Both the position numbers and the translations under genes were made by a program. A model generated the notes under the pieces. That model searched no databases and was not told where the DNA came from. It saw nothing but the letters and a program-made list of their open reading frames with translations. A stretch of DNA of 33,431 nucleotides, from the NCBI GenBank assembly GCA_002718655.1, contig PBFM01000014.1, positions 23,925 through 57,355 on the forward strand. Reading direction: 5' to 3'. The DNA comes from Fidelibacterota bacterium (GTDB lineage Bacteria; Fidelibacterota; Marinisomatia; Marinisomatales; UBA1611). The stretch's first letter is position 1. The number at the start of each line of letters is the position of its first letter. Of this stretch, positions 1,998-15,580 are shown piece by piece.

Positions 1998-3338
1998 CTA
2001 GTTTGATTTTTCTTTATCTTTCCCAACTAATGTTAAACCCATCGAAAGATTAAAACCTTTCATAGTATGAAGCCACATTCCGTTTCTGAATGCAAATCCG
2101 AAATCGTACATTACGATACCTTTCTTGATACCGAATCCCATACCTAATTCCTTAAAGTCACCACCGCCCCAAGCAAATCCTATTCTCATTGGAATATGTT
2201 TTAAGCGTGTCCATTCTGTTCCTATAGACCATTTCCACCTTTTTCTTGAATAATATTTGTTTTCAAAACCAGCTATAAGATCTGATGCAATTAAAAAATT
2301 TCCTGCTTGCTTTGATAATCCCATTCTGAATGTGGCAGGCATACGGGTAATGAATTCTTTTTGATTTTTCGGCACGAAAAATTCAGTATTGTTTGTAAAT
2401 AATGAGTCCTCACCGAGCCTATCTGCACGAATTGTATCTATGTTGAATGTATATAATATTGATTCATTCGCATTTAATTCATCATCACCCCATCTAAAGG
2501 GATAAAAACTTGAAGTAAGAGGATTAATACTTGTAGATGTATTGCTTCCTCCCTGCTTCCACATAATCGATCCAACAAGATTTATTATGGATATACCAAA
2601 CTGCCAATCTTTATAAGGCCTTGAGACTACTCCAATATCAAATCCAAATCCTGCCCCACCCACTCCCTGCCTTAATATGTACCTTCCATTACCATATATT
2701 CCTTCATCATCAGTTATGAGATTAGAATATGATGAATCCTCGTCTACGCCTAAATAAAATAAACCCTGCATATACTTCGCCGTCACACCCCAGGACATAG
2801 ATTTGAATGGTATTCCAAAAGAAAATCCATATTCATTCATACCCAAGATTTCATAATTAAATTCTAAGTCTAAATTAGTTTTTTGACCGTTACCATACAT
2901 AATCAGTTCCAATAAACCTATTGGCAGACGATAATTTTGCAGTATCATATTATTAGCAGAAAATGCTTTATTCCCTATTGATAGATTAAGCAGCGGTATC
3001 GGCATATGGGTATCCATAAAAAAGGACATGCCATCTGCAGCTTCTAATTCCCTAAAAATAGCATTTTTTTCTTTTGTATCTAGAGTATCTCCGCTATAGG
3101 CAGCAATATTTTCAATTGAAAAGAAATTGCCAACTAGGCCAAAATCAAATTGGAACCCCTGGTACATAAATGGTTTATTTTGTTGGAGACCAATTAGACC
3201 AGGATTATATCCTACACTAAAAATCCCCTGGGCGATTGTAGTGTAAGCCCCTGCCATACCTACTACCCTTGGATCACGTTTTGTTTGTGCTTGAATGGTG
3301 ATACTCAGTACAAGAGAAATAAATATAAGTTTCTTCAT
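1998..3338 (-). CDS. PorV/FadL-like outer-membrane beta-barrel protein
   Basis: This is a 446-residue protein with a clear signal peptide (MKKLIFISLVLSITIQAQ). Alternating aromatic and glycine-rich strands then run to the C-terminus. The mature start, DPRVVGMAGAYTTIAQGI with SVGYNPGLIG just after, resembles the N-terminus of PorV and related FadL-type barrels of the FCB group, where an N-A/G-P motif marks the hatch region. The exact role (type IX secretion shuttle, hydrophobic transport, or something else) cannot be read from the sequence. Its ATG overlaps the stop of the upstream 1056-residue lipoprotein gene as ATGA, so the two are probably co-translated. It converges on the LptF/LptG-type gene with 34 bases between stops and no obvious terminator. 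Confidence 0.7.
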   Translation of the reverse strand: MKKLIFISLVLSITIQAQTKRDPRVVGMAGAYTTIAQGIFSVGYNPGLIGLQQNKPFMYQGFQFDFGLVGNFFSIENIAAYSGDTLDTKEKNAIFRELEAADGMSFFMDTHMPIPLLNLSIGNKAFSANNMILQNYRLPIGLLELIMYGNGQKTNLDLEFNYEILGMNEYGFSFGIPFKSMSWGVTAKYMQGLFYLGVDEDSSYSNLITDDEGIYGNGRYILRQGVGGAGFGFDIGVVSRPYKDWQFGISIINLVGSIMWKQGGSNTSTSINPLTSSFYPFRWGDDELNANESILYTFNIDTIRADRLGEDSLFTNNTEFFVPKNQKEFITRMPATFRMGLSKQAGNFLIASDLIAGFENKYYSRKRWKWSIGTEWTRLKHIPMRIGFAWGGGDFKELGMGFGIKKGIVMYDFGFAFRNGMWLHTMKGFNLSMGLTLVGKDKEKSN

Positions 3339-6300
3339 CTATTATTCCAAATCACCTTGGGTTTTGTAGTAAATGATCTGCGATGGCTAGAATTTTCTCG
3401 TATTTTTATGAAATATCCGTTTATGTCACAAGCTCCGCCATTAGATGCAACAATTTTTAATCTAAGCGAGTCAGTTTCAGTTAATCCACTTGACGATAAA
3501 TCCCAATTATAGGTACCAGTATTATCCAAACCACCCTCAATTAATGTCCAATTATTTGTAATTGTACAAAAACCTTTTTTATAGGTATTTGAATCGCTAG
3601 TAATTGAATAGAAGATATCAACAGATTCATCACTGCTTCCATAGGTAGCCCATTTTATATCATATGATTGATCATTGTACAAGGTTTGTCCTCCATTAGG
3701 ATAGGTAAGAATCAATTCATTCTCAGCTGAACCAAAGGCTCCAGTGCTACTTACCGTAAAAGTAATGAACGAACTTATGTCTAAGTAATCTTTTGTTGAA
3801 ATAAATGCACCCACGCTACCAGTTCCAGGAAGATGAAATCTAGGCATTGTATAATGATTTCCGTAATCAGTCAGTAAAAAAATTTGTGAAGTGTCAATTG
3901 TACTCGCATAAACTCCTGTACCAGGAATAGCAACCATCCCTTCTGGAAAACCAGATGAATCATTTTCTCCATAGTAGGATAAAGGATCGGGGAGAATAAA
4001 TTTAAATAATGTATCAACATATGAGAAAATTGAATCAACTCCAGAGCCATTTGTTTTGACAATGTATGGTAAACCATCAATGCACTCGGAATAGTCAGTC
4101 ATGACATCATAAATATAAATATTACTATTGCTATCTGGTGACATGTCACTACACCTTCTAATAATATATAAACTATCCATTAAGGAATCCAGGATTCCTT
4201 GAGTAGCGAGGGTATCTCGAAAAAAGTTTAGTTGGTCACGAGTTGTATCTTGAGGAAATTGAGATTTATTACTCATCAACACGGAAACCTCAGCACCAAA
4301 TGGCATTGCATTTGTGATGGTTGACACTAAGCTTGTTTCTAAAAGACTATTTCTAATTTTATATCTTGTATCGTGGTCAACCTCTTCTATTTCAGTTGAA
4401 TTACCCATAAAGGTCATTGGAGAAATCTGTAATACAAGAGGTATTGTAACTCTGAAACCTCCTCCAATGGCTTTACCTCCTGCTATTTCTCCTCTGCCAT
4501 CCACTTTTGCTGTTGGATTAATTACCATCGAAACTGGATTTGATGCTAAAAGATCAATTATGGTTGAACAAGTATCGCATGGAGTCTCAGTTTTAACATA
4601 TGAAGGAAGTGAATCATTAACAGATTTGTAAATTGAAATAGTTGTACCAAGTTTATTAAGTGCAATTATTGTCATAGATGTATCTAATGGACTATCAGAG
4701 TCTGGAAACCCAACAGTGTCCACGTTTACAGGAACATATGTAAGATCACCTAGACTATTGTATCCTTTAAATTCCATGAACATCTTGATTGGCAGTCTAA
4801 TTTGATTTTTAAAAATTATTTCAATCATTGCTTCAGTAGGGACTGCTCCAGTTAATCCAGGAGGGATTTCTTGGGACGTTGGTTCTGCAGGTAATTCCAT
4901 ATATAAATTAGCCCCAATAGACGCAAACTCTAATTTATCCAATTGCATATTCATTGTGAACTCACCTAATGGAGAACCATCCAAAGGTATGCTGGCTTTT
5001 TGTTCAGGTATGGCTATGTCTAAATCAAGGTCAAAACTAGTAAAAGCACTGTCTGGCCAGCAATCATCATCACATAAACCAAGTTCACAATCTTGAAAAT
5101 CACAGGGGATACCATCAGGACCATCATTATCACCATAAATACTCTGCAAAAAGTAACCATGCATAGGAAAGTTTCTATCTATATTTACGCCCTTTCTAAG
5201 AACTGTATCTATTTTCACAGAATCGCTGGTTGAAGGAAATGGTGTAAAATTCTTAAAGTTCATCAAAAATCTCATATCAAAAGGAAAGGAACTCGCTAGA
5301 TTACTTATTGCCAATACATTTGATACGGGGCTTTCAGTATCTGCTTCATCTTTTAATTTGTTTCTATATATTTCCATCCTACTAATTCCTGATTCACTCA
5401 TATCTAATTCAGGCAGCTCTATAGATGGTAGCTCTAATGCATCTGATAAAGAGTAATTATTAGTAGTGACATCAATACTATCAATTCCTGACATCTGGAA
5501 AGCAATTTCAAAATCAACATAAAGAGATCCTGGCTCTATGGTAACATAATTATCTGCGGGTGCAAGAGACATATTTGTGGCTAATTTTAAATAATTTACT
5601 AGACCTTTTCCTGACAGATTGGTGTTATGGGAATAAGTTTGGCCAGATTGTAAAGTAGATAACGAATCATGATCAGCAAGAGTATCACTTAAAAATATGT
5701 TACTATTACCAGTTACCATATAAGAGTATATGTTCTCAAGATTAGTTGGTATTCCGTTATTTTTAAAGGAGGTCTTGTACACACTATTGGTAGGATGTGT
5801 ACCAATCACCAAGGTATCTACGCTCGCAATGATTGGTGGATCATCCGGGAGAGGTATTGATGATAATCCAAGGTCAATAGTTGTATCAAGAGCAGTAGAT
5901 AATATACCCATTACAGAATCAAATAACGCAACTATAAGAGTGTTGTAATCTTCAGAGGTCATAGTTCTTACAGAATCAGTTGGGAAACTGAATGGCCTAC
6001 CCAACGTATCACCAGTCTCAGGATCCGTAAAACATTCCGTAGTCTCTACTCCAAGAACCGTTATGGTAGTACAATATGCTGCAGTATCTTGATAAACTCG
6101 TGCACCATATAGTACCACGTCAATTCGCTGGTCTATGGAAATGCCAGGGAGATCTAAATCCAAGTTTATTCCTTCAATTTCTCCTGAAGCAATAGCTTGA
6201 TCAAGCCCAAGAGGAATGGATGGTAATTCAGGCAACTCAGAAGCAGGCATTTCTCCTTCCTGAATAATTACAAATCCTAATGAATCTTCAGTAAGAAAAA

Positions 6301-6505
6301 TGCCTGCGGTTGAATCTGATATATCAACCATTTGATATTTTGATTTAACTAAGGGTATCTTGAGATCCAGATACCAAGTCGGCATCTCAAACTTATCTGG
6401 GATATCAAAATCACAAGAAACAAAAATGATTGTTAACACAATCAGTAATATGTTTTTGACGCCCTTATTAAAGTTAAATAGGGTATGTCTCGGGTTTACC
6501 TTCAT
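3335..6505 (-). CDS. Large predicted lipoprotein with C-terminal Ig-like domain, function unknown
   Basis: I do not recognise the main body of this 1056-residue protein. A lipoprotein signal peptide is visible: basic N-terminus, hydrophobic run, then FVSC with the lipidated cysteine at residue 31. Residues 40-900 are beta-rich and acidic, with repeated proline and leucine turns (LPELPSIPLG near 91, LELPSIELPELD near 358). A cysteine-rich acidic patch (C468, C473, C478, C482) may bind a metal or form disulfides. Residues about 930-1037 look like an Ig-like domain of the Kre9/KNH type, with TYPNGGQTL and DIKWATYG. It overlaps the barrel gene by four bases (ATGA). That suggests a surface or periplasmic lipoprotein working with a barrel, which is inference. 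The Shine-Dalgarno match is weak. Confidence 0.75.
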   Translation of the reverse strand: MKVNPRHTLFNFNKGVKNILLIVLTIIFVSCDFDIPDKFEMPTWYLDLKIPLVKSKYQMVDISDSTAGIFLTEDSLGFVIIQEGEMPASELPELPSIPLGLDQAIASGEIEGINLDLDLPGISIDQRIDVVLYGARVYQDTAAYCTTITVLGVETTECFTDPETGDTLGRPFSFPTDSVRTMTSEDYNTLIVALFDSVMGILSTALDTTIDLGLSSIPLPDDPPIIASVDTLVIGTHPTNSVYKTSFKNNGIPTNLENIYSYMVTGNSNIFLSDTLADHDSLSTLQSGQTYSHNTNLSGKGLVNYLKLATNMSLAPADNYVTIEPGSLYVDFEIAFQMSGIDSIDVTTNNYSLSDALELPSIELPELDMSESGISRMEIYRNKLKDEADTESPVSNVLAISNLASSFPFDMRFLMNFKNFTPFPSTSDSVKIDTVLRKGVNIDRNFPMHGYFLQSIYGDNDGPDGIPCDFQDCELGLCDDDCWPDSAFTSFDLDLDIAIPEQKASIPLDGSPLGEFTMNMQLDKLEFASIGANLYMELPAEPTSQEIPPGLTGAVPTEAMIEIIFKNQIRLPIKMFMEFKGYNSLGDLTYVPVNVDTVGFPDSDSPLDTSMTIIALNKLGTTISIYKSVNDSLPSYVKTETPCDTCSTIIDLLASNPVSMVINPTAKVDGRGEIAGGKAIGGGFRVTIPLVLQISPMTFMGNSTEIEEVDHDTRYKIRNSLLETSLVSTITNAMPFGAEVSVLMSNKSQFPQDTTRDQLNFFRDTLATQGILDSLMDSLYIIRRCSDMSPDSNSNIYIYDVMTDYSECIDGLPYIVKTNGSGVDSIFSYVDTLFKFILPDPLSYYGENDSSGFPEGMVAIPGTGVYASTIDTSQIFLLTDYGNHYTMPRFHLPGTGSVGAFISTKDYLDISSFITFTVSSTGAFGSAENELILTYPNGGQTLYNDQSYDIKWATYGSSDESVDIFYSITSDSNTYKKGFCTITNNWTLIEGGLDNTGTYNWDLSSSGLTETDSLRLKIVASNGGACDINGYFIKIRENSSHRRSFTTKPKVIWNNR

Positions 6506-6623: not shown

Positions 6624-8069
6624 TTAATATCTATAATGGTCTGGCTTGTATGGCCCGTCTTTAGGCACTCCAATATAGTCTGCTTGCTCGTCAGTTAATT
6701 CAGTTAATTCAATACCTAGATGATCTAAGTGGAGTCTTGCCACTTCCTCATCTAATTCTTTTGGAAGCATATATACCCCTATCTCTGGTGCGTTTTGAGC
6801 TAAAGCAATTTGAGCCATAACTTGGTTAGTAAATGAATTTGACATAACAAAACTAGGATGACCAGTTGCACACCCTAAATTTACCAACCTACCTTCTGCA
6901 AGTAAGAATATTTCATGGCCATCTGGAAATTTGTATCTATGAACTTGAGGCTTTATTGTTTCTCTTTGAACAGATTTATCATCGTTTAGTGCATTGACTT
7001 GAATTTCATTATCAAAATGACCAATATTACACACTACTGCTTGATCTCTCATACCATACATATGATCTTTTGTGATAACATCTTTATTTCCAGTTGTTGT
7101 TACAAAAATATGCCCTTCATCAATAACATTCTCAACCGTTGTTACCTCAAAACCTTCCATAGCAGCCTGCAATGCGCATATTGGGTCAATTTCCGTTACG
7201 ATTACCCTTGCTCCATAACCACGCATTGATTGTGCACATCCTCTGCCAACATCACCATATCCACAAATAATAACAGTCTTACCAGCAACCATCACATCAA
7301 GAGCCCTTTTTAGACCATCTGCTAGAGATTCACGACATCCATAAACATTATCAAACTTTGATTTTGTTACAGAATCATTAACATTATATGCTGGAAATAA
7401 TAAATGTCCATCTTTTTCCATTTGAACAAGCCTATGTACACCAGTCGTAGTTTCCTCTGAGACACCAATAATATTCTCTTGCAATTTATGCCAATGATTC
7501 GAATCTTTTTTAAGTACTTCTCTTAAAAGATTTTCTATTATGACTTCTTCTTCAATTTCAGTTTTAATTTCTGGAGCTTTTCTGTATTTCGCATAATATT
7601 CTTCTAATTCATATCCCTTGTGAATAAGCAGAGTTGCATCACCACCATCATCAACAATTAGGTCAGGTCCAGAACCATCTGGATAAGTTAGAGCTTGAAG
7701 GGTACACCACCAGTATTCTTCAAGTGTTTCACCTTTCCAAGCATAGACTGGGATACCAGCTTCAGCAATTACAGCTGCTGCATGATCTTGTGTAGAAAAA
7801 ATATTACAACTTGCCCATCTTACGTTAGCACCAAGTTCAACAAGTGTTTCTATAAGTACTGCAGTTTCAACAGTCATATGTAATGATCCAGTCAACTTTT
7901 TTCCTGCAAGTGGTTTTTCAGGACCATATTTTTTTCTTGTTGACATTAGACCAGGCATTTCTTTTTCAGCGATATCTAAGGCTTTTCTTCCATCTCTTGC
8001 TAGTGATAGGTCTTTTATCTTGTGCGGTAAATTTTCTACAATAGATCGAGTTGTTAATGTATCTGACAT
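6624..8069 (-). CDS. ahcY: Adenosylhomocysteinase (S-adenosylhomocysteine hydrolase)
   Basis: The enzyme hydrolyses S-adenosylhomocysteine to homocysteine and adenosine in the cytoplasm, removing the inhibitory by-product of methylation and feeding homocysteine back to MetH. The protein is 481 residues from the chosen start. Visible marks are GSLHMT (catalytic His64), DDGGD (140-144), EETTTGV, the SVTKSKFDN active-site segment (232-240), the NAD-binding GYGDVGRG (270-277), HFDNE (351-355) and the family C-terminus YKPDHYRY. It carries the roughly 40-residue insert near 150-195 found in many bacterial and plant forms. An in-frame ATG at 8123 would overlap metK by 46 bases. I chose 8069 because AGGA lies six bases upstream and the N-terminus then fits the family. 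It is the last gene of the metH operon; no terminator is evident. Confidence 0.97.
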
Positions 8070-8080
8070 TTCTTTTCCTA
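8070..8080 (-). promoter_or_regulatory. Ribosome binding site of ahcY, overlapping the metK stop codon
   Basis: Read on the minus strand, AGGA (8079-8076) sits six bases before the ATG at 8069 and shares bases with the metK stop TAG (8080-8078). This decides the start against the longer in-frame ATG at 8123 and suggests translational coupling of ahcY to metK. Confidence 0.7.
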
Positions 8081-9253
8081 TGATTTGTTTAAAAGGGTAT
8101 CGACCATATCGGTCTTTTCCCATGTGAATTGATCAAGCTCACGCCCAAAATGGCCATAAGCAGCAGTTTCTCTATAGCGCGGTTTCTTTAAATCTAAATG
8201 TGCAACTATTTCCCCAGGTCTGATAGGGAATACATCTCTAGCAAGCCTTGTTAGATCGTTGTCTGCTTTCTTTCCTGTTCCACCAGTTTTAACATAGAAA
8301 GATGTAGGCTCAGCAACCCCAATACCGTATGACAATTGAACCTCACAACGTTCTGCAAGGCCAGATGCAACTATGTTTTTTGCAATATATCTAGCCATAT
8401 AGGTTGCACTGCGATCAACTTTTGAAGAATCTTTACCTGAAAAAGCTCCACCACCATGAGGTGCATATCCACCATAGGTATCTACAATAATTTTTCTCCC
8501 AGTTAGACCTGTATCTGCCTCAGGACCTCCGTAAACGAACCTACCGGTTCCATTAACGATAAAATTATTTTCATATGCATATCCATAAGAATCAAGTACT
8601 GGTCTTATTACATTTTCAACTATTTCAGTTTTTACAAATTCCAACTCACTTCTTTCATTTCCATATTTGTCAAGCATATCATCATGCTGAGTTGCAATGA
8701 CTGTCTTTTCAATTGATATGGGTTTTGTATTATCATACTTTACTGATACTTGAGACTTACCATCAGGCCTAAGCCAAGTAAGAAAACCCTCCTTACGCAA
8801 CTTAGTTAAACGTTCTGTTAATCTGTGTGCTATTTGAATTGGAAGAGGCATTAACTCCGGTGTTTCTTTGCAAGCAAAACCAAACATTAATCCTTGATCT
8901 CCTGCACCCTGTTCAGATAAGTCATTAGCGTCAACTCCCTGAGCTATTTCTGGGCTCTGTTCATGAAGCTTGGACAGAACTTCTACCTCTTCAGGGTCGA
9001 TCCCACTGTTTGTTTTGTTATATCCAATTGCGCGGATAGCGTCTTTTACTATCTTATCTACATTAATAGATGCAGTAGTTCTAATTTCTCCAGATATGAC
9101 CACAAGACCTTTAGTAGCTAGCGATTCGCATGCTACATGAGCGTCATTATCTTTTGATAGAATATCATCTAAAACAGCATCGGAAAAAGCATCACAAGCT
9201 TTGTCAGGATGCCCCTCAGTTACAGATTCTGATGTAAATAAAAACTTGCTCAT
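8078..9253 (-). CDS. metK: S-adenosylmethionine synthetase
   Basis: The enzyme makes S-adenosylmethionine from methionine and ATP in the cytoplasm. The 391-residue length is typical. Visible marks are EGHPDK with His15 near the N-terminus, the ATP-binding GAGDQG (116-121), the glycine-rich GGGAFSGKD loop (267-275) followed by KVDRS, and the family C-terminus with YGHFGR. The Shine-Dalgarno sequence AGGG lies eight bases before the ATG. It lies 60 bases after metF and eight bases before ahcY on the same strand. As third gene of the metH operon it would be under the SAM-II leader at 13819-13914, so its own product would feed back on its expression. Confidence 0.98.
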
Positions 9254-9302: not shown

Positions 9303-9325
9303 TATACATTCGTTTATAATGTATA
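9303..9325 (-). repeat. AT-rich inverted repeat across the metF stop codon
   Basis: TATACATT and AATGTATA form an eight-pair stem with a seven-base loop at the end of metF and the start of the metF-metK gap. It is not followed by a clean U-tract, so a terminator is unlikely. It could be a processing or stability element, or chance in AT-rich DNA. Confidence 0.3.
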
Positions 9326-10264
9326 GTTTTGTGTTTTTATGCAAAATTCTCTATAAATGCGAGCTAATTCCTGTAACATTTCTACAGAGGATTGAAAATT
9401 ATAAGACATTATATGCTCAACATTTAAACCAACCGGAACCTTTAGATTATTTTTTTCAATATTACTTAAAATCTCATTTAAAACTTCAATCGCAACATCA
9501 AGCGAACGTTCTTTCATCGATCCAGGCCTACCTTGTAAATATCTTTCTGTATTATCTGGTATCTCAACACCGAGCCATTTGAGAAATTCAATATTTTTTT
9601 GGGATGATACTGGAGCAAAACTTAATAATATTCTTCTTGGAAATGTATTGAGCTCATGGCATCTTTTTTGATAGTTATTTATCATTTTTATTGCATTTTC
9701 AGAATCATATAGAACTTGAGTTGTAAAGAATTCAGAACCATGCTGACTTTTCTGAATTAAATTTTTTGATTCTTCTTTTCTACTCGGTATAGAAATCCCG
9801 CCACAAAATATATCCCCAACTTTTTTATTATAAATGTTAGATATGGCATTTAAAGCTTCATTTACTGTAGGTCCAGAGTACTTTACACTGCTTGATTCTC
9901 CTCCTACTATTATCATATTCTCAATCTCAAAATCTTTATTTGTCTCTTCCAGCCATCTCATTTGCGTATCATAATCATCATAAACAACCACTCGGTTTAT
10001 AATTGCCTCAATCCCAACAATATCTTGCAAGAGTCTACCGAACTCCCTAGGCTCTCCTCTTTTTTGATTAACAATAGGCCGATCTCCCCTACCGACCTCA
10101 TCGTGCACTTCTGGTATATTTATCGCATCAATGTGAGTTTGGGATAGCAATGAACTTATTGTTTCAGCATACGAATTCAACGTTCCATCTTTTTCCCTTG
10201 GTGGTAGAATCTCATATGCGACTACAGGACGATGTGGTTTTTTAATCTTGTCTCTAATTCTCAT
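9314..10264 (-). CDS. metF: Methylenetetrahydrofolate reductase family protein (divergent)
   Basis: This enzyme family reduces 5,10-methylene- to 5,10... 5-methyltetrahydrofolate, the methyl donor used by MetH. The protein is 316 residues, a little longer than E. coli MetF. It is divergent but recognisable. It has YEILPP (17-22) in place of the usual FEFFPP, with the glutamate kept at 18, and FFTTQVLYD (179-187) in place of the ITQFFFD strand, with Gln183 kept. It also has a C-terminal VGLNVEHIMSYN segment. The usual LRGD loop is replaced by VGGES (120-124). The ATG shares one base with the metH stop (TAATG), and GAGAG lies just upstream, so translation is probably coupled. Folate methyl supply next to metH fits the function. 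The gene symbol rests on family and context. Confidence 0.8.
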   Translation of the reverse strand: MRIRDKIKKPHRPVVAYEILPPREKDGTLNSYAETISSLLSQTHIDAINIPEVHDEVGRGDRPIVNQKRGEPREFGRLLQDIVGIEAIINRVVVYDDYDTQMRWLEETNKDFEIENMIIVGGESSSVKYSGPTVNEALNAISNIYNKKVGDIFCGGISIPSRKEESKNLIQKSQHGSEFFTTQVLYDSENAIKMINNYQKRCHELNTFPRRILLSFAPVSSQKNIEFLKWLGVEIPDNTERYLQGRPGSMKERSLDVAIEVLNEILSNIEKNNLKVPVGLNVEHIMSYNFQSSVEMLQELARIYREFCIKTQNYTL

Positions 10265-13200
10265 TATAATCTCTCGTTTTTAAGCACACTAAAGTATCGT
10301 GCTTTTGGATGGGAAAAGTACCAACCACATACAGATGCAGCGGGAAACATTGCTCTAGATTCCGTTAAGCTGATACCTATCTCCTGTTCAACATTTAGTA
10401 ATTCCCAAATTTTATCTTTTTCTTTGTGATTTGGGCAAGCTGGATAACCAGGAGCAGGTCTAATTCCACAATACTTTTCATAAAGCATCGCATTCAAGTC
10501 TAAATCTTCATCTTTTGAATAGCCCCAATATTCTCTTCTTACCTTTTTATGTAACCATTCAGCGGCTGCCTCAGCTAAACGATCAGCCAAGACCTTTGCC
10601 ATAATTTCATTATAATCATCATTTTTTACTTGGTATTCTTCGATGATATTTTCAATCCCATATCCAGCTGACACAGCAAATAATCCAATGTAGTCATCTC
10701 CAGCCGGTGATATGTAATCTGCCAAACTGAAGTTTGGTTGGTTTCCTTTATCCATTAATTGCCTTGGAAAATGAAAAGAAATCTTATTGTCAATTAATTC
10801 AACCTCTTCATCATTTGATCGAGCTTTGAAGAAACCGTAAACTGCCTTAGCCTTGAGTTTATCATCTTTAATAATCAAATGCAGTAATTGCTGCGCATCA
10901 TCAAAGACTTTTTTTGCTTCAACGCCTTTAGTTGGATGTTCAAATATCTTTGGGTAAACACCTGATAATTCCCAAGCATGAAATAATGGAGACCAATCGA
11001 TATATTTTGATAAGGTATTAAGGCAGATTTCTTCTCTTTTAAAAGAACCTAATTCTTGCGGAACGATAGGATTATATTTAAGCAATGGCTTTCTTAACCT
11101 TGCATCCTCAATCGATATAAGGTTTATGTTTTTTTGATTTTCATAAAAAGATTCTTTAATAGAACTATACCTGTCTTTAGTCTCCTCTATCAATTCAATT
11201 TTTTCACTCGGTTTTAGCAGCTTAGCCACAAAACCAACACAACGACTAGCATCTTGAACATAGAAAACGCCCTGAGGATATTTTTCTTCAATTTTAACGG
11301 CAGTGTGTTTCACACTGGTTGTAGCACCTCCAATAAGAAGCGGTATGTCAAAATTAAGGCGTTTCATTTCTGAAGCTACGTGTACCATCTCTTCTAAACT
11401 TGGAGTTATTAATCCAGATAGCCCAATAATGTCAGCGCCAACTTCTTTTGCCTTTGATAGAATTTTTTCTGCTGGAACCATCACTCCCATATCAACAATC
11501 GAGTATCCATTGCATCCTAAGACCACCCCAACAATATTTTTACCAATATCATGGACATCACCTTTCACCGTGGCCAATAGTATGGTACCATTAGAAATGT
11601 CCCCAACACCTTTATCTTGTTTTTCTTTCTCAATAAAGGGAATTAGATATGCTACTGCCTTCTTCATGACTCTTGCAGATTTAACTACCTGCGGGAGAAA
11701 CATCTTACCCTCTCCAAATAGATCTCCTACTCGGTTCATTCCATCCATGAGAGGCCCTTCAATAACTCCTATGGGGTTGTCGAACTCAGATCTTGCAACT
11801 TCAGTATCTTCTTCAATAAATTTGTCGAGTCCTTCAATTAAAGAATAAGATAACCTTTCTTTTATTGGCAGACTTCTCCATTCGTCATTACTCTTTTTCT
11901 CTTTTTTTGTGCCACGGTATTTTTCCGCAAGCGCTACTAAATTATCAGTCGCAGTTTCACTACGATTAAACAGAACATCCTCAATGGCATCTCTGAGTTC
12001 AATGTCTATGTCATCATAAATCGTTAATTGTCCGGGGTTGACAATACCCATATCCATACCACTGGTGGTGGCATGATATAAAAAACATGAATGCATTGCC
12101 TCTCGGACAGTGTCATTACCACGAAAAGAAAAAGAGAGATTACTAACTCCACCACTGACATGTACTTTTGGCATTAATTCTCTTATTTTCTTGGCTGAAT
12201 CAATATATGCTTTCCCATACTGATTGTGCTCTTCAATACCAGTTGCAACTGCAAAGATATTTGGATCAAAAATAATGTCTTCCTCCCTCATCATCACTGT
12301 ACCAGTAAGAATATGGAAGGCGCGTTGGCATATTTCAACTTTTCTTTCAAAAGTATCTGCTTGGCCATTTTCATCAAAGGCCATGACGATGACCGCAGCA
12401 CCATATTGATTTACCAATTGAGCCTGTCTTATAAACTCATCCTCTCCTTCTTTGAGAGAAATGGAATTTACAATACCTTTGCCTTGGATATTCTTAAGAC
12501 CTGATTCAATGACACTCCATTTACTAGAATCAATCATTATGGGAACTTTACTAATATCCGGTTCAGATGAAATTAGCCTGAGGTAACGAATCATAGCATT
12601 TTCACTATCTATAAGTCCTTCATCCAAATTAATATCAATAATCTGTGCTCCATTTTCGACCTGATCTCTTGCTACTGATAATGCTTCTTCAAACTTGTCT
12701 TCCTTTATAAGTTTTTTAAACCGCAAGGAGCCCGTGACGTTCGTTCTTTCTCCAACATTAATGAAATTAGATTCTGGACGTATGACTAATGGCTCCAGCC
12801 CGCTCAATTTTGTATATGCCTCTACATTTGGAATTTTACGAGGCTTTTTACCATTTACATCATTTGCAAATGCATTTATATGATCTGGCGTGGTGCCACA
12901 ACACCCACCAATTATATTTACTAAACCTGAGTCAGTGAATTCTGAAAGTTGCTGTGACATGTCTTCTGGTGATTCATCATAACCACCAAACTCATTAGGT
13001 AAACCCGCATTAGGATATACAATTATATTGGTGTTAGCTATTTTAGACAGCGATGCTATGTAGGGTCTTATTTCCTCTGCGCCTAGTGCACAGTTGAGAC
13101 CAACAGCTAATAAATCTACATGAAATATTGAATGCCAAAAAGCTTCAACAGTTTGACCAGATAATAATCTCCCACTGGCATCTGTTATAGTTCCTGAAAC

Positions 13201-13818
13201 AATTACTGGAATTTCTTTACCAACTTCTTTGAAAAGTGACTGTATTGCAAACAATGCTGCTTTACAATTTAAAGTATCGAAAACCGTCTCAATCATTAAA
13301 ATATCTACTCCACCATCAAACAAACCTTTTGCCTGATCCTCGTAGGCATCTACCAATTGATCAAAATCAACATTCCTATGACCAGGGTTTGATACGTCAG
13401 GGCTCATAGAAGCAGTTTGGTTGGTTGGGCCAATCGCACCACAAACAAATCTAGGCTTATTTGGGTTAGATTTCGTAATACGATCGCATACATCTCTTGC
13501 AATTTTTGCAGATTCCAGGTTTAGGTCATATGCCAGATGCTCCAATTGATAATCTGACTGCGATATTGAATTTGCATTAAAAGTATTTGTCTCTATCAGA
13601 TCAGCTCCAGCTTTTAAATAGGATTCATGTATTTCTGAAATAATATCTGGCCTAGTGATTGAAAGAATATCATTATTACCCATTAGGTCCATCGTATGGT
13701 CGTTGAACTGAGAACCTCGAAAATCATTTTCTTTCAACCCATATCCTTGAATCATAGTACCCATGGCACCGTCAAGTACGAGAACTCTTTCTTTTAATAT
13801 ATCTTTAATTTTTTGCAT
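10264..13818 (-). CDS. metH: Cobalamin-dependent methionine synthase, full length
   Basis: MetH transfers a methyl group from 5-methyltetrahydrofolate through cobalamin to homocysteine, giving methionine. All four modules are present in 1184 residues. The homocysteine domain starts at LDGAMGT (15-21) and has zinc ligands Cys243, Cys306 and Cys307. The pterin domain follows from INVGERTN (353-360). The cobalamin domain has DVHDIG with the ligand His756. The C-terminal activation domain has the SAM-binding [10 protein letters not shown] (1120-1129). Reductive reactivation is therefore likely, and the cell needs B12. It is first in an operon with metF, metK and ahcY. The ATG follows directly on the U-tract of a terminator-like hairpin downstream of a SAM-II aptamer. 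There is no Shine-Dalgarno sequence next to this start. Confidence 0.98.
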
Positions 13819-13842
13819 AAAAAAACCGGCGCAAAGTCCGGT
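13819..13842 (-). terminator. Terminator-like hairpin of the metH riboswitch leader
   Basis: On the minus strand, ACCGG (13842-13838) pairs with CCGGT (13829-13825) around an eight-base loop. A run of seven Ts (13825-13819) follows and ends right at the metH ATG. This has the form of an intrinsic terminator, though the stem is short. Its place between the aptamer and the start codon suggests transcription attenuation of the methyl-cycle operon. Confidence 0.65.
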
Positions 13843-13857
13843 ATTAAGGTCACTTTA

Positions 13858-13914
13858 ATTCCTTTTTAGCGCTTTTATTTTTTGTCGCGGCAATATGGTG
13901 CAAATCACGACCTA
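13858..13914 (-). ncRNA. SAM-II (metA-type) riboswitch aptamer upstream of metH
   Basis: The minus-strand leader shows the SAM-II pseudoknot plan. Stem P1 is GTCGTG (13911-13906) with CGCGAC (13889-13884). Loop L1 carries the conserved GATTTG, then ACC and TTGC. An A-rich L3 follows, then the conserved 3' strand GCTAAAAAGG (13870-13861), which folds back on L1. GATTTG, ACC..TTGC and GCTAAA are the positions I know as invariant in this class, which binds S-adenosylmethionine. The 3' segment is nearly identical to that of the crystallised marine metX example as I recall it. The single A usually found between TTGC and the 3' side of P1 is missing. The gene downstream, metH, and its operon fit a SAM-repressed regulon. 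SAM-V shares part of the core and is the main alternative. Confidence 0.85.
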
Positions 13915-13916
13915 CT

Positions 13917-13929
13917 TGAAAATATTAAA
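13917..13929 (-). promoter_or_regulatory. Possible -10 element for the metH leader
   Basis: TTTAAT (13929-13924 on the minus strand) matches five of six bases of TATAAT and would place transcription start near 13917, just before P1 of the aptamer. No good -35 element is seen at the normal spacing, so this is weak. Confidence 0.25.
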
Positions 13930-13963
13930 GAATCACGATATATCCAAAGCTAAAGTTCAATCA

Positions 13964-15580
13964 TTATAATTTAGGACCTGCTTCGAGTATATCATTATCT
14001 CCAAGATCATATTTTTTATAATTATCCTGAAATTTTTTAACCAATTTTTTTGCAGATGTGTGATAATCATTTAGATTATCCCAGGCTCGTAATGGATTCA
14101 AAAGTCTGGAATCTATATCACCCAAGGAAACTGGAATCTGAAAACCAAAATAATGATCTTTTTCAAAATCTGTTTGTTCAATTTCTCCATTAAGAATTAA
14201 ATCTAGAATTTGTCTAGTTTTCGGTAGACTAAATCTCTTGCCTCCAGAACGAGCATCAGCTCCTACCCAACCAGTATTAACTAGGTAAACAGCAACATCA
14301 AATGTTTCCATTTTTTCTTTTAATAACTCTGCATATTTAATAGGGTGCAATGTTAAGAATGGACCCCCAAAACAAGGGGAAAAGGTAGCAGTGGGTTCAG
14401 TAATACCTCTTTCTGTTCCAGCTACCTTTGCTGTATATCCACTGACAAAATGATACATAGCCTGTTGTGTTGTTAATTTAGCGACAGGAGGTAAAATCCC
14501 ATAAGCATCACAAGTGAGAAAAATTATTGTATTTGGATGTCCTGCAATACTTGGCATTCCCTTTCCTGATATTGAGTTATTTATATGGTGTAGTGGATAT
14601 GAAACTCTAGTATTTTCTGTTTTTGTTCCATCACTAAAATCAATTTCTAAAGTGTCTTTATCATAAACAACATTTTCTAAAAGGGCACCCTGTCTTATAG
14701 CATTGTAAATATCTGGCTCTTCATCTTTGTTGAGGTTTATGACCTTAGCATAACATCCGCCTTCAAAGTTGAAAATACCATCACCAGACCATCCGTGCTC
14801 ATCATCTCCAATAAGAGGTCTATTGGAATCTGTACTTAAAGTGGTCTTACCAGTTCCAGAAAGTCCAAAGAATATTGCAGGGTTACTATTGTCTTTACTA
14901 ATGTTAGCAGAACAATGCATTGATAAGATTCCCTTTTTGGGGAGTATGTAATGCAATACCGAAAAAATTCCCTTTTTCATTTCTCCACCGTATTCAGTAC
15001 CTCCGATAATTGCAATTCTCTTGGCGAGATGAAATATTATGAAAGTTTCAGAATTCATACCTAGATCTTGATAATCTGTGTTTTTCACATCTGAAGCATT
15101 AATTATGGTAAAACCTGGCCTGAAGCCAGTAAGATCTTCCTGCTTCGGACGAATGAACATATTATTAACAAAATGCGCTTGCCAAGCCTTCTTCGCGATA
15201 ATGCGAACATTAAGAGTGTGCTTTTTATCTGCACCGGCATATCCATCAAAAACATAAGTTTTATCACTAATTTGTGAATTATAAAAATGTATTACCTTTG
15301 AGTATAATTTATTAAATACTTTCTCACTTATCTTTTGGTTAACATCACCCCACCATATATCATTTGAAGAGGATGATTCTTCTACTATATACTTATCCTT
15401 TGGAGATCTACCTGTATAAATACCAGTGTCTACCATAGCTGCACCTTTCATTCCAATTAAGCCTTCACCATTATCAACAATATCCTTAACCAGTGCCTTT
15501 ACGGGTAAATTCCTATGCACATTCTCTAAATTAATTATACCAAGTTTATCTAAACCTAATTCATTACTATTTAATTTCAT
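13964..15580 (-). CDS. pckA: Phosphoenolpyruvate carboxykinase (ATP)
   Basis: The enzyme converts oxaloacetate and ATP to phosphoenolpyruvate, CO2 and ADP, the entry step of gluconeogenesis. The 538-residue length is typical of the ATP-dependent class. Visible marks are TGRSPKDK (56-63) with the substrate-binding arginine, GGEMKKGIFSVLHY (198-211) with metal-ligand lysine and histidine, the P-loop GLSGTGKTTLS (239-249), and FEGGCYAK (272-279). The Shine-Dalgarno sequence AGGG lies six bases before the ATG. It follows the xer gene by 16 bases and looks like the last gene of the ileS cluster. No terminator is evident before the metH leader, so some read-through into that leader is possible. Confidence 0.97.
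   Translation of the reverse strand: MKLNSNELGLDKLGIINLENVHRNLPVKALVKDIVDNGEGLIGMKGAAMVDTGIYTGRSPKDKYIVEESSSSNDIWWGDVNQKISEKVFNKLYSKVIHFYNSQISDKTYVFDGYAGADKKHTLNVRIIAKKAWQAHFVNNMFIRPKQEDLTGFRPGFTIINASDVKNTDYQDLGMNSETFIIFHLAKRIAIIGGTEYGGEMKKGIFSVLHYILPKKGILSMHCSANISKDNSNPAIFFGLSGTGKTTLSTDSNRPLIGDDEHGWSGDGIFNFEGGCYAKVINLNKDEEPDIYNAIRQGALLENVVYDKDTLEIDFSDGTKTENTRVSYPLHHINNSISGKGMPSIAGHPNTIIFLTCDAYGILPPVAKLTTQQAMYHFVSGYTAKVAGTERGITEPTATFSPCFGGPFLTLHPIKYAELLKEKMETFDVAVYLVNTGWVGADARSGGKRFSLPKTRQILDLILNGEIEQTDFEKDHYFGFQIPVSLGDIDSRLLNPLRAWDNLNDYHTSAKKLVKKFQDNYKKYDLGDNDILEAGPKL

Follow-up and report, generated by a model that had tools for sequence, protein, structure and literature searches.

The metH leader described here is very probably a SAM-II riboswitch that would turn the metH-metF-metK-ahcY operon off at transcription, as judged from comparison of related leaders and from predicted folds. 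The element in front of metH is a real member of SAM-II, a known class found here in a new phylum and with a conserved new main target. It lies within a 33,431-nucleotide stretch of a Fidelibacterota genome (hereafter the window), where it forms a 53-nt RNA on the minus strand between pckA (13964-15580) and metH (10264-13818), about 42 nt upstream of metH. Read from 13913 to 13861, its sequence is AGGTCGTGATTTGCACCATATTGCCGCGACAAAAAATAAAAGCGCTAAAAAGG.

The metH operon and its host

The genes behind the element are co-directional and all belong to the SAM cycle:

10264-13818, minus strand: metH, cobalamin-dependent methionine synthase (TIGR02082, 1668.7 bits; NF007024, 1909.7 bits)
9314-10264, minus strand: metF-like methylenetetrahydrofolate reductase, divergent (PF02219, 38.2 bits against a cut-off of 24; under the NCBIfam cut-offs)
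8078-9253, minus strand: metK, methionine adenosyltransferase (TIGR01034, 537.6 bits)
6624-8123, minus strand: ahcY, adenosylhomocysteinase (TIGR00936, 621.1 bits)

The last base of metH is the start of the metF-like gene, and the metK and ahcY reading frames overlap. The family profiles support the operon proposed in the initial annotation. Its assignment to Marinimicrobia is supported too: the closest named relatives of MetH come from bins titled Candidatus Neomarinimicrobiota or Marinimicrobia and are 68-87% identical to it. NCBI now names the phylum Fidelibacterota (Marinimicrobia, SAR406) and places it in the FCB group. Bins titled bacterium TMED46 and Euryarchaeota also occur among the relatives, the latter probably mislabelled. 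One contig in a bin titled Euryarchaeota archaeon (L115, NZXM01000048.1) carries a metH 86% identical to that of the window behind the same kind of SAM-II leader, and is probably a mislabelled Marinimicrobia contig.

Despite its place between metH and metK, the metF-like gene is far from the curated MetF models, with scores far below the NCBIfam cut-offs, and possibly represents a distinct type of MTHFR. Elsewhere in the window, the product of a reading frame at 3335-6505 (minus strand), 1056 aa long, matches nothing in Pfam or NCBIfam; a PorV-family-like gene (1998-3338) follows it directly.

A SAM-II aptamer in front of metH

The following parts of the aptamer were located:

13861-13913, minus strand: SAM-II aptamer core, with P1, L1 and the P2 pseudoknot strands (RF00521, 30.0 bits at 13845-13921; lineage model R1, 72.3 bits)
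13906-13911, minus strand: P1 5' strand, GTCGTG (pair 7-27 covaries in alignment A2)
13890-13905, minus strand: L1 (ATTTG, 13905-13901) and P2 5' strand (CC, 13898-13897; ATTGC, 13894-13890)
13884-13889, minus strand: P1 3' strand, CGCGAC, partner of 13906-13911
13861-13870, minus strand: P2 3' strand, GCTAAAAAGG, common to the pseudoknot and the antiterminator, with GCTAAA invariant

P1, ATTTG, CC..TTGC and the P2 3' strand thus follow in the order that the initial annotation had given, on the minus strand, which it had left unstated. At curated thresholds an Rfam scan of the whole window gave no match. With thresholds off, RF00521 matched over its full length at 30.0 bits (E 6.1e-5), short of its gathering score of 36; RF01826 (SAM-V) reached 27.1 bits against 41, and RF01726 (SAM-II long loop) 14.8 bits against 44. 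Both models to which the initial annotation had pointed, RF00521 and RF01826, therefore matched, each below its threshold. Since this evidence is sub-threshold for the window copy, Rfam alone would leave the case open.

We therefore turned to a covariance model of the lineage, built from 66 metH leaders of the same order (alignment A1), with the window's own family excluded and P1 as the sole structure. In a search of the 2.1 Mb genome it scored the window aptamer at 72.3 bits (E 3.6e-17), and the next match reached 20.3 bits. This score comes close to a blind prediction, because the model contains no sequence from the window's family, and it bears out the SAM-II class named in the initial annotation. 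A second SAM-II in the same genome was sought and rejected: the next matches scored 19-20 bits, and the Rfam one that was inspected had neither P1 nor the TTGC core.

Distribution and conservation of the aptamer

Over the same order the lineage model detected the aptamer in 96 of 130 genomes, 36 of 38 genera and 38 of 45 good-quality genomes; many of the absences came from a single genus whose genomes are small (g19, 0.4-1.0 Mb). RF00521 matched in 94 of the 130 genomes and in none of 14 control genomes. Its gathering score was exceeded in 50 of the 130, leaving 44 of the 94 match-bearing genomes without any match above the cut-off. The position is conserved as well: 91 of the 105 RF00521 matches in the order stood directly before metH, 3 lay at contig ends and were not assignable, and 11 were another kind of element. 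Eight further matches in the same class, outside the order, precede a metH-like reading frame, as judged by eye from translations.

A simple regular expression found the motif in none of the 22 remaining metH loci titled from other groups, and a distant locus titled Neomarinimicrobiota (L123) likewise had metH without a SAM-II motif by this expression. Several metH leaders of Bacteroidota (L114, L121, L124-L128, L133 and L137) have another conserved stretch just before the start codon, about AAAGATAAG..ACCCACC..GGGCTCTCTGGATAGC.

Across 87 metH leaders, including that of the window, the TTT of L1, TTGC and GCTAAA are all invariant, and the core order ATTTG / TTGC / GCTAAA is kept. P1 covaries. 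At pair 7-27 (alignment A2, 83 sequences) we counted UG 65 times, GC 6, UA 5, AU 4, CG 2 and another combination once, and P1 cells changed on both sides numbered 28, against 13.7 +/- 3.0 in shuffles. Covariation, which the initial annotation had proposed to test in both P1 and P2, was seen in the former. P2a (CC/GG) is paired in 98% of cells with few changes, and the P2b strand, for which pairing is possible, is invariant and so offers no covariation. The initial annotation had also described an A as missing between TTGC and P1. The position is in fact occupied: the column is variable, with C in the window and most sequences and otherwise A or U, so the difference is a substitution. In 63 of 82 sequences this base can pair (G-C or G-U) with the final base of the P1 5' strand.

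A predicted terminator and antiterminator

The initial annotation contained no expression platform. Between the aptamer and metH, and just upstream of P1, we noted these features:

13918-13948, minus strand: promoter-like TTTG (13948-13945), N20 and TATTTTC (13924-13918), a recurring motif, weak in the window
13869-13872, minus strand: putative antiterminator 5' strand, GCGC, extendable into TAAA (13868-13865); pairs with 13832-13829 in the free minimum-energy fold
13829-13835, minus strand: putative antiterminator 3' strand, TTTGCGC, in the terminator loop and 3' arm (complementarity, folds and duplex energies)
13825-13842, minus strand: predicted intrinsic terminator hairpin, ACCGG-actttgcg-CCGGT (one found in a terminator scan; shuffle mean 0.1)

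The T-run of the terminator (13824-13819, minus strand) abuts the metH ATG. A hairpin with a U-run lies 3' of the aptamer in 89 of 91 metH leaders, the U-run usually abutting the metH AUG; the two leaders without a terminator were G078, which has many Ns, and G099. The first ATG lies 4-10 nt past the terminator stem in 71 of the 89 leaders (about 80%). Across 90 leaders, a TTG at about -36 and a TA-rich box at about -12 appear repeatedly upstream of P1. This recurrent TTTG...TA-type motif would start the transcript at the aptamer; a sigma-70 promoter scan found none.

The loop and 3' arm of the terminator are complementary to the P2 3' strand of the aptamer, as GGUGCUAA/UUAGCACC in many leaders. 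The pair has lineage versions: GUUGCUA/UAGCAAC in genus g26, GAUGCUA/UAGCAUC in genus g29, GAGCUAA/UUAGCUC in family f8 and GCGCUAA/UUAGCGC in the window's family. The usual match is absent from about five leaders (G081, G082 and G106-G108). At the three positions 5' of GCUAA, 202 of 263 cells were paired, compared with 161.4 +/- 4.8 when leaders were permuted, a test that ignores relatedness and in which selecting the partner register in part on total matches biases the count towards pairing. With the register chosen on GCUAA alone, changes among Watson-Crick pair types on the MetH tree numbered at least 7 at position -1, 5 at -2 and 2 at -3. The mean duplex energy of the antiterminator was -8.7 kcal/mol, against -7.2 for swapped leaders and -3.9 for shuffled loop letters. 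In the window one U bulges out of the helix, GCGC(U)AAA/UUUGCGC, and the energy, -7.3 kcal/mol, is weaker than the mean; the free fold of the window also pairs the A-rich linker with the U-run.

When the P2 3' strand was blocked, as a stand-in for the SAM-bound state, the terminator appeared in 87 of 89 folds. The free minimum-energy fold was antiterminated in only 39 of 89 leaders, so the kinetics of co-transcriptional folding must matter. Comparison and folds together indicate that the predicted platform is a terminator with a mutually exclusive, covarying antiterminator built from a strand of the aptamer. What comparison shows is the aptamer, its conserved place before metH, the terminator and the antiterminator.

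Proposed mechanism and alternatives

We propose that at high SAM the P2 pseudoknot would be stabilised and would retain GCUAAAAAGG. With the P2 3' strand held there, the downstream hairpin could form and RNA polymerase would halt just before the metH start codon. At low SAM the P2 3' strand (GCGCUAAA in the window, usually GGUGCUAA) would instead pair with the loop and 3' arm of the terminator; with the loop captured in this way the terminator could not form and the operon would be transcribed. SAM binding, selectivity, the direction of control and the efficiency of termination are properties that we infer for the metH-leader RNA.

A purely translational SAM-II switch, in which AAAAAGG would be the Shine-Dalgarno sequence that SAM binding hides and the hairpin would be incidental or a standby element, appears improbable. 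AAAAAGG does resemble a Shine-Dalgarno sequence, no such motif stands between the hairpin and the first ATG in 80 of 89 leaders, and there is a precedent in S. meliloti metA, where translation from a start 74 nt downstream uses the Shine-Dalgarno sequence inside the riboswitch (PMC9373788). Yet a near-universal terminator with a U-run, its loop covarying with an aptamer strand, is not needed for purely translational control, and Shine-Dalgarno motifs are also weak before most other genes of the window. Because the hairpin occupies the ribosome-binding place and most leaders have no Shine-Dalgarno-like motif there, a translational contribution to a transcriptional switch is possible; we suggest, more tentatively, that the terminator hairpin may also hinder ribosome binding.

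The remaining alternatives are less probable still. That the aptamer is SAM-V rather than SAM-II is very unlikely: the two have a common binding core (PMC6061858) and RF01826 also matches, but at 27.1 bits its score is lower and further under its cut-off, and SAM-V has been described as translational (PMC6061858) whereas a terminator platform is typical of SAM-II. We rejected on comparison a leader-peptide attenuator, for which we see next to no likelihood; it would use a 19-codon GTG ORF overlapping the metH start, whose GTG (about 13853) falls a few bases past AAAAAGG in the window genome, but this ORF is not common to the other leaders, whose sequence differs there. Equally hard to credit is a chance resemblance or a degenerate, non-functional relic. 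The sub-threshold Rfam score would fit such a relic; all invariant positions are kept, however, the place before metH is conserved, and a model made from leaders of other families recovers the window copy at 72.3 bits (E 3.6e-17). Transcriptional control by a SAM-II riboswitch is the reading that we retain.

A second kind of SAM-II-like element

About a dozen Fidelibacterota genomes carry divergent RF00521-like elements that are not before metH, often in tandem and patchy across families. The form of copy 2, GTGGNGATTTGNNAGGNTTGCNNCCAC, was found in 10 of 245 genomes, from 6 genera, and a reversed control pattern in none. Copy 2 often follows the first copy by about 100 nt, and its P2a is inverted (AGG/CCC) with pairing kept. 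In L158-L168, several loci with copy 2 then have a TCTCC..GGAGA hairpin enclosing what is probably the Shine-Dalgarno sequence of a small ORF; this arrangement would fit a translational switch behind a transcriptional first copy. Tandem SAM-II is already known, with 44 cases (PMC9481103).

Second-kind elements lay beside defence-type genes at five loci:

L171, 10159-19999
L170, 8282-14165
L169, 1758-4465
L154, 942-2790
L152, 2-2480

Among the neighbours are a Druantia-like DruE (1790 bits) and DruF/DruL, a type I methyltransferase (HsdM), a dGTPase scoring 230 bits and HNH endonucleases, as well as an operon that contains an AAA ATPase and a divergent SAM synthetase. In several cases the gene immediately downstream encodes a small protein of no known function. 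With a handful of loci and small, uncharacterised first genes, the link to defence is an impression rather than a statistic. No match to the element was found in viral, phage and plasmid collections. It is conceivable, and we consider it rather doubtful, that SAM-II-type aptamers were recruited a second time in the phylum, as divergent, often tandem copies in patchy islands before defence-type cargo. If these elements are OFF switches like that of metH, loss of SAM, for example through a phage SAM-degrading enzyme, would turn the defence genes on.

Relation to known systems

The window aptamer resembles the SAM-II (RF00521, SAM_alpha) of A. tumefaciens metA in its P1, ATTTG loop, TTGC and P2 pseudoknot with GCTAAA. 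The A. tumefaciens RNA has been shown to bind SAM and to discriminate against SAH, and in many members a terminator has been described between P2 and the ORF (PMC1273637); SAM-II is commonly followed by a terminator (PMC2258182, PMC6061858). In contrast to A. tumefaciens, the element of the window is in another phylum, controls a metH operon instead of metA, metX or metY, has a short P2a (CC/GG), and in place of the fixed A after TTGC its lineage has C, A or U. The S. meliloti metA leader likewise has aptamer, terminator and start codon in order, and a Shine-Dalgarno-like sequence inside the aptamer (PMC9373788); its terminator is predicted to be unaffected by SAM, whereas here the loop is complementary to an aptamer strand and covaries with it. 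SAM-V (RF01826) has the same binding core and pseudoknot (PMC6061858) and differs in being translational and in scoring lower here. Candidatus Pelagibacter ubique, also marine, has a transcription-terminating SAM-II in tandem with SAM-V (PMC9481103); the window has a single aptamer, with no second before metH.

SAM-II was reported in the Bacteroides group in 2005 (PMC1273637) and again in Bacteroidetes in 2007 (PMC2258182). The initial annotation, which had presented an FCB-group member as an extension of range, was overstated on that point because of the 2005 report; its other half, metH as an addition to the target set, holds within the literature searched. SAM_alpha targets in about 200 proteobacterial genomes were metY, metA, metX, metC, hom and metW, with no metH among them (PMC4239095). 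We found no report of SAM-II together with Marinimicrobia or SAR406 in the openly accessible literature that was searched, and within it the Fidelibacterota range and the fixed metH target look unreported.

In the accessible literature the link between SAM-II pseudoknot and terminator has so far been predicted leader by leader. The metH leaders form a large natural SAM-II set in which the putative antiterminator can be read by covariation, and a lineage-specific model would recover the copies that fall below the Rfam cut-off in the 44 of 94 match-bearing genomes of the order. For a phylum of abundant uncultured ocean bacteria, the leader provides a concrete, testable control circuit of the methionine/SAM cycle whose main target is metH in place of metA, metX or metY.
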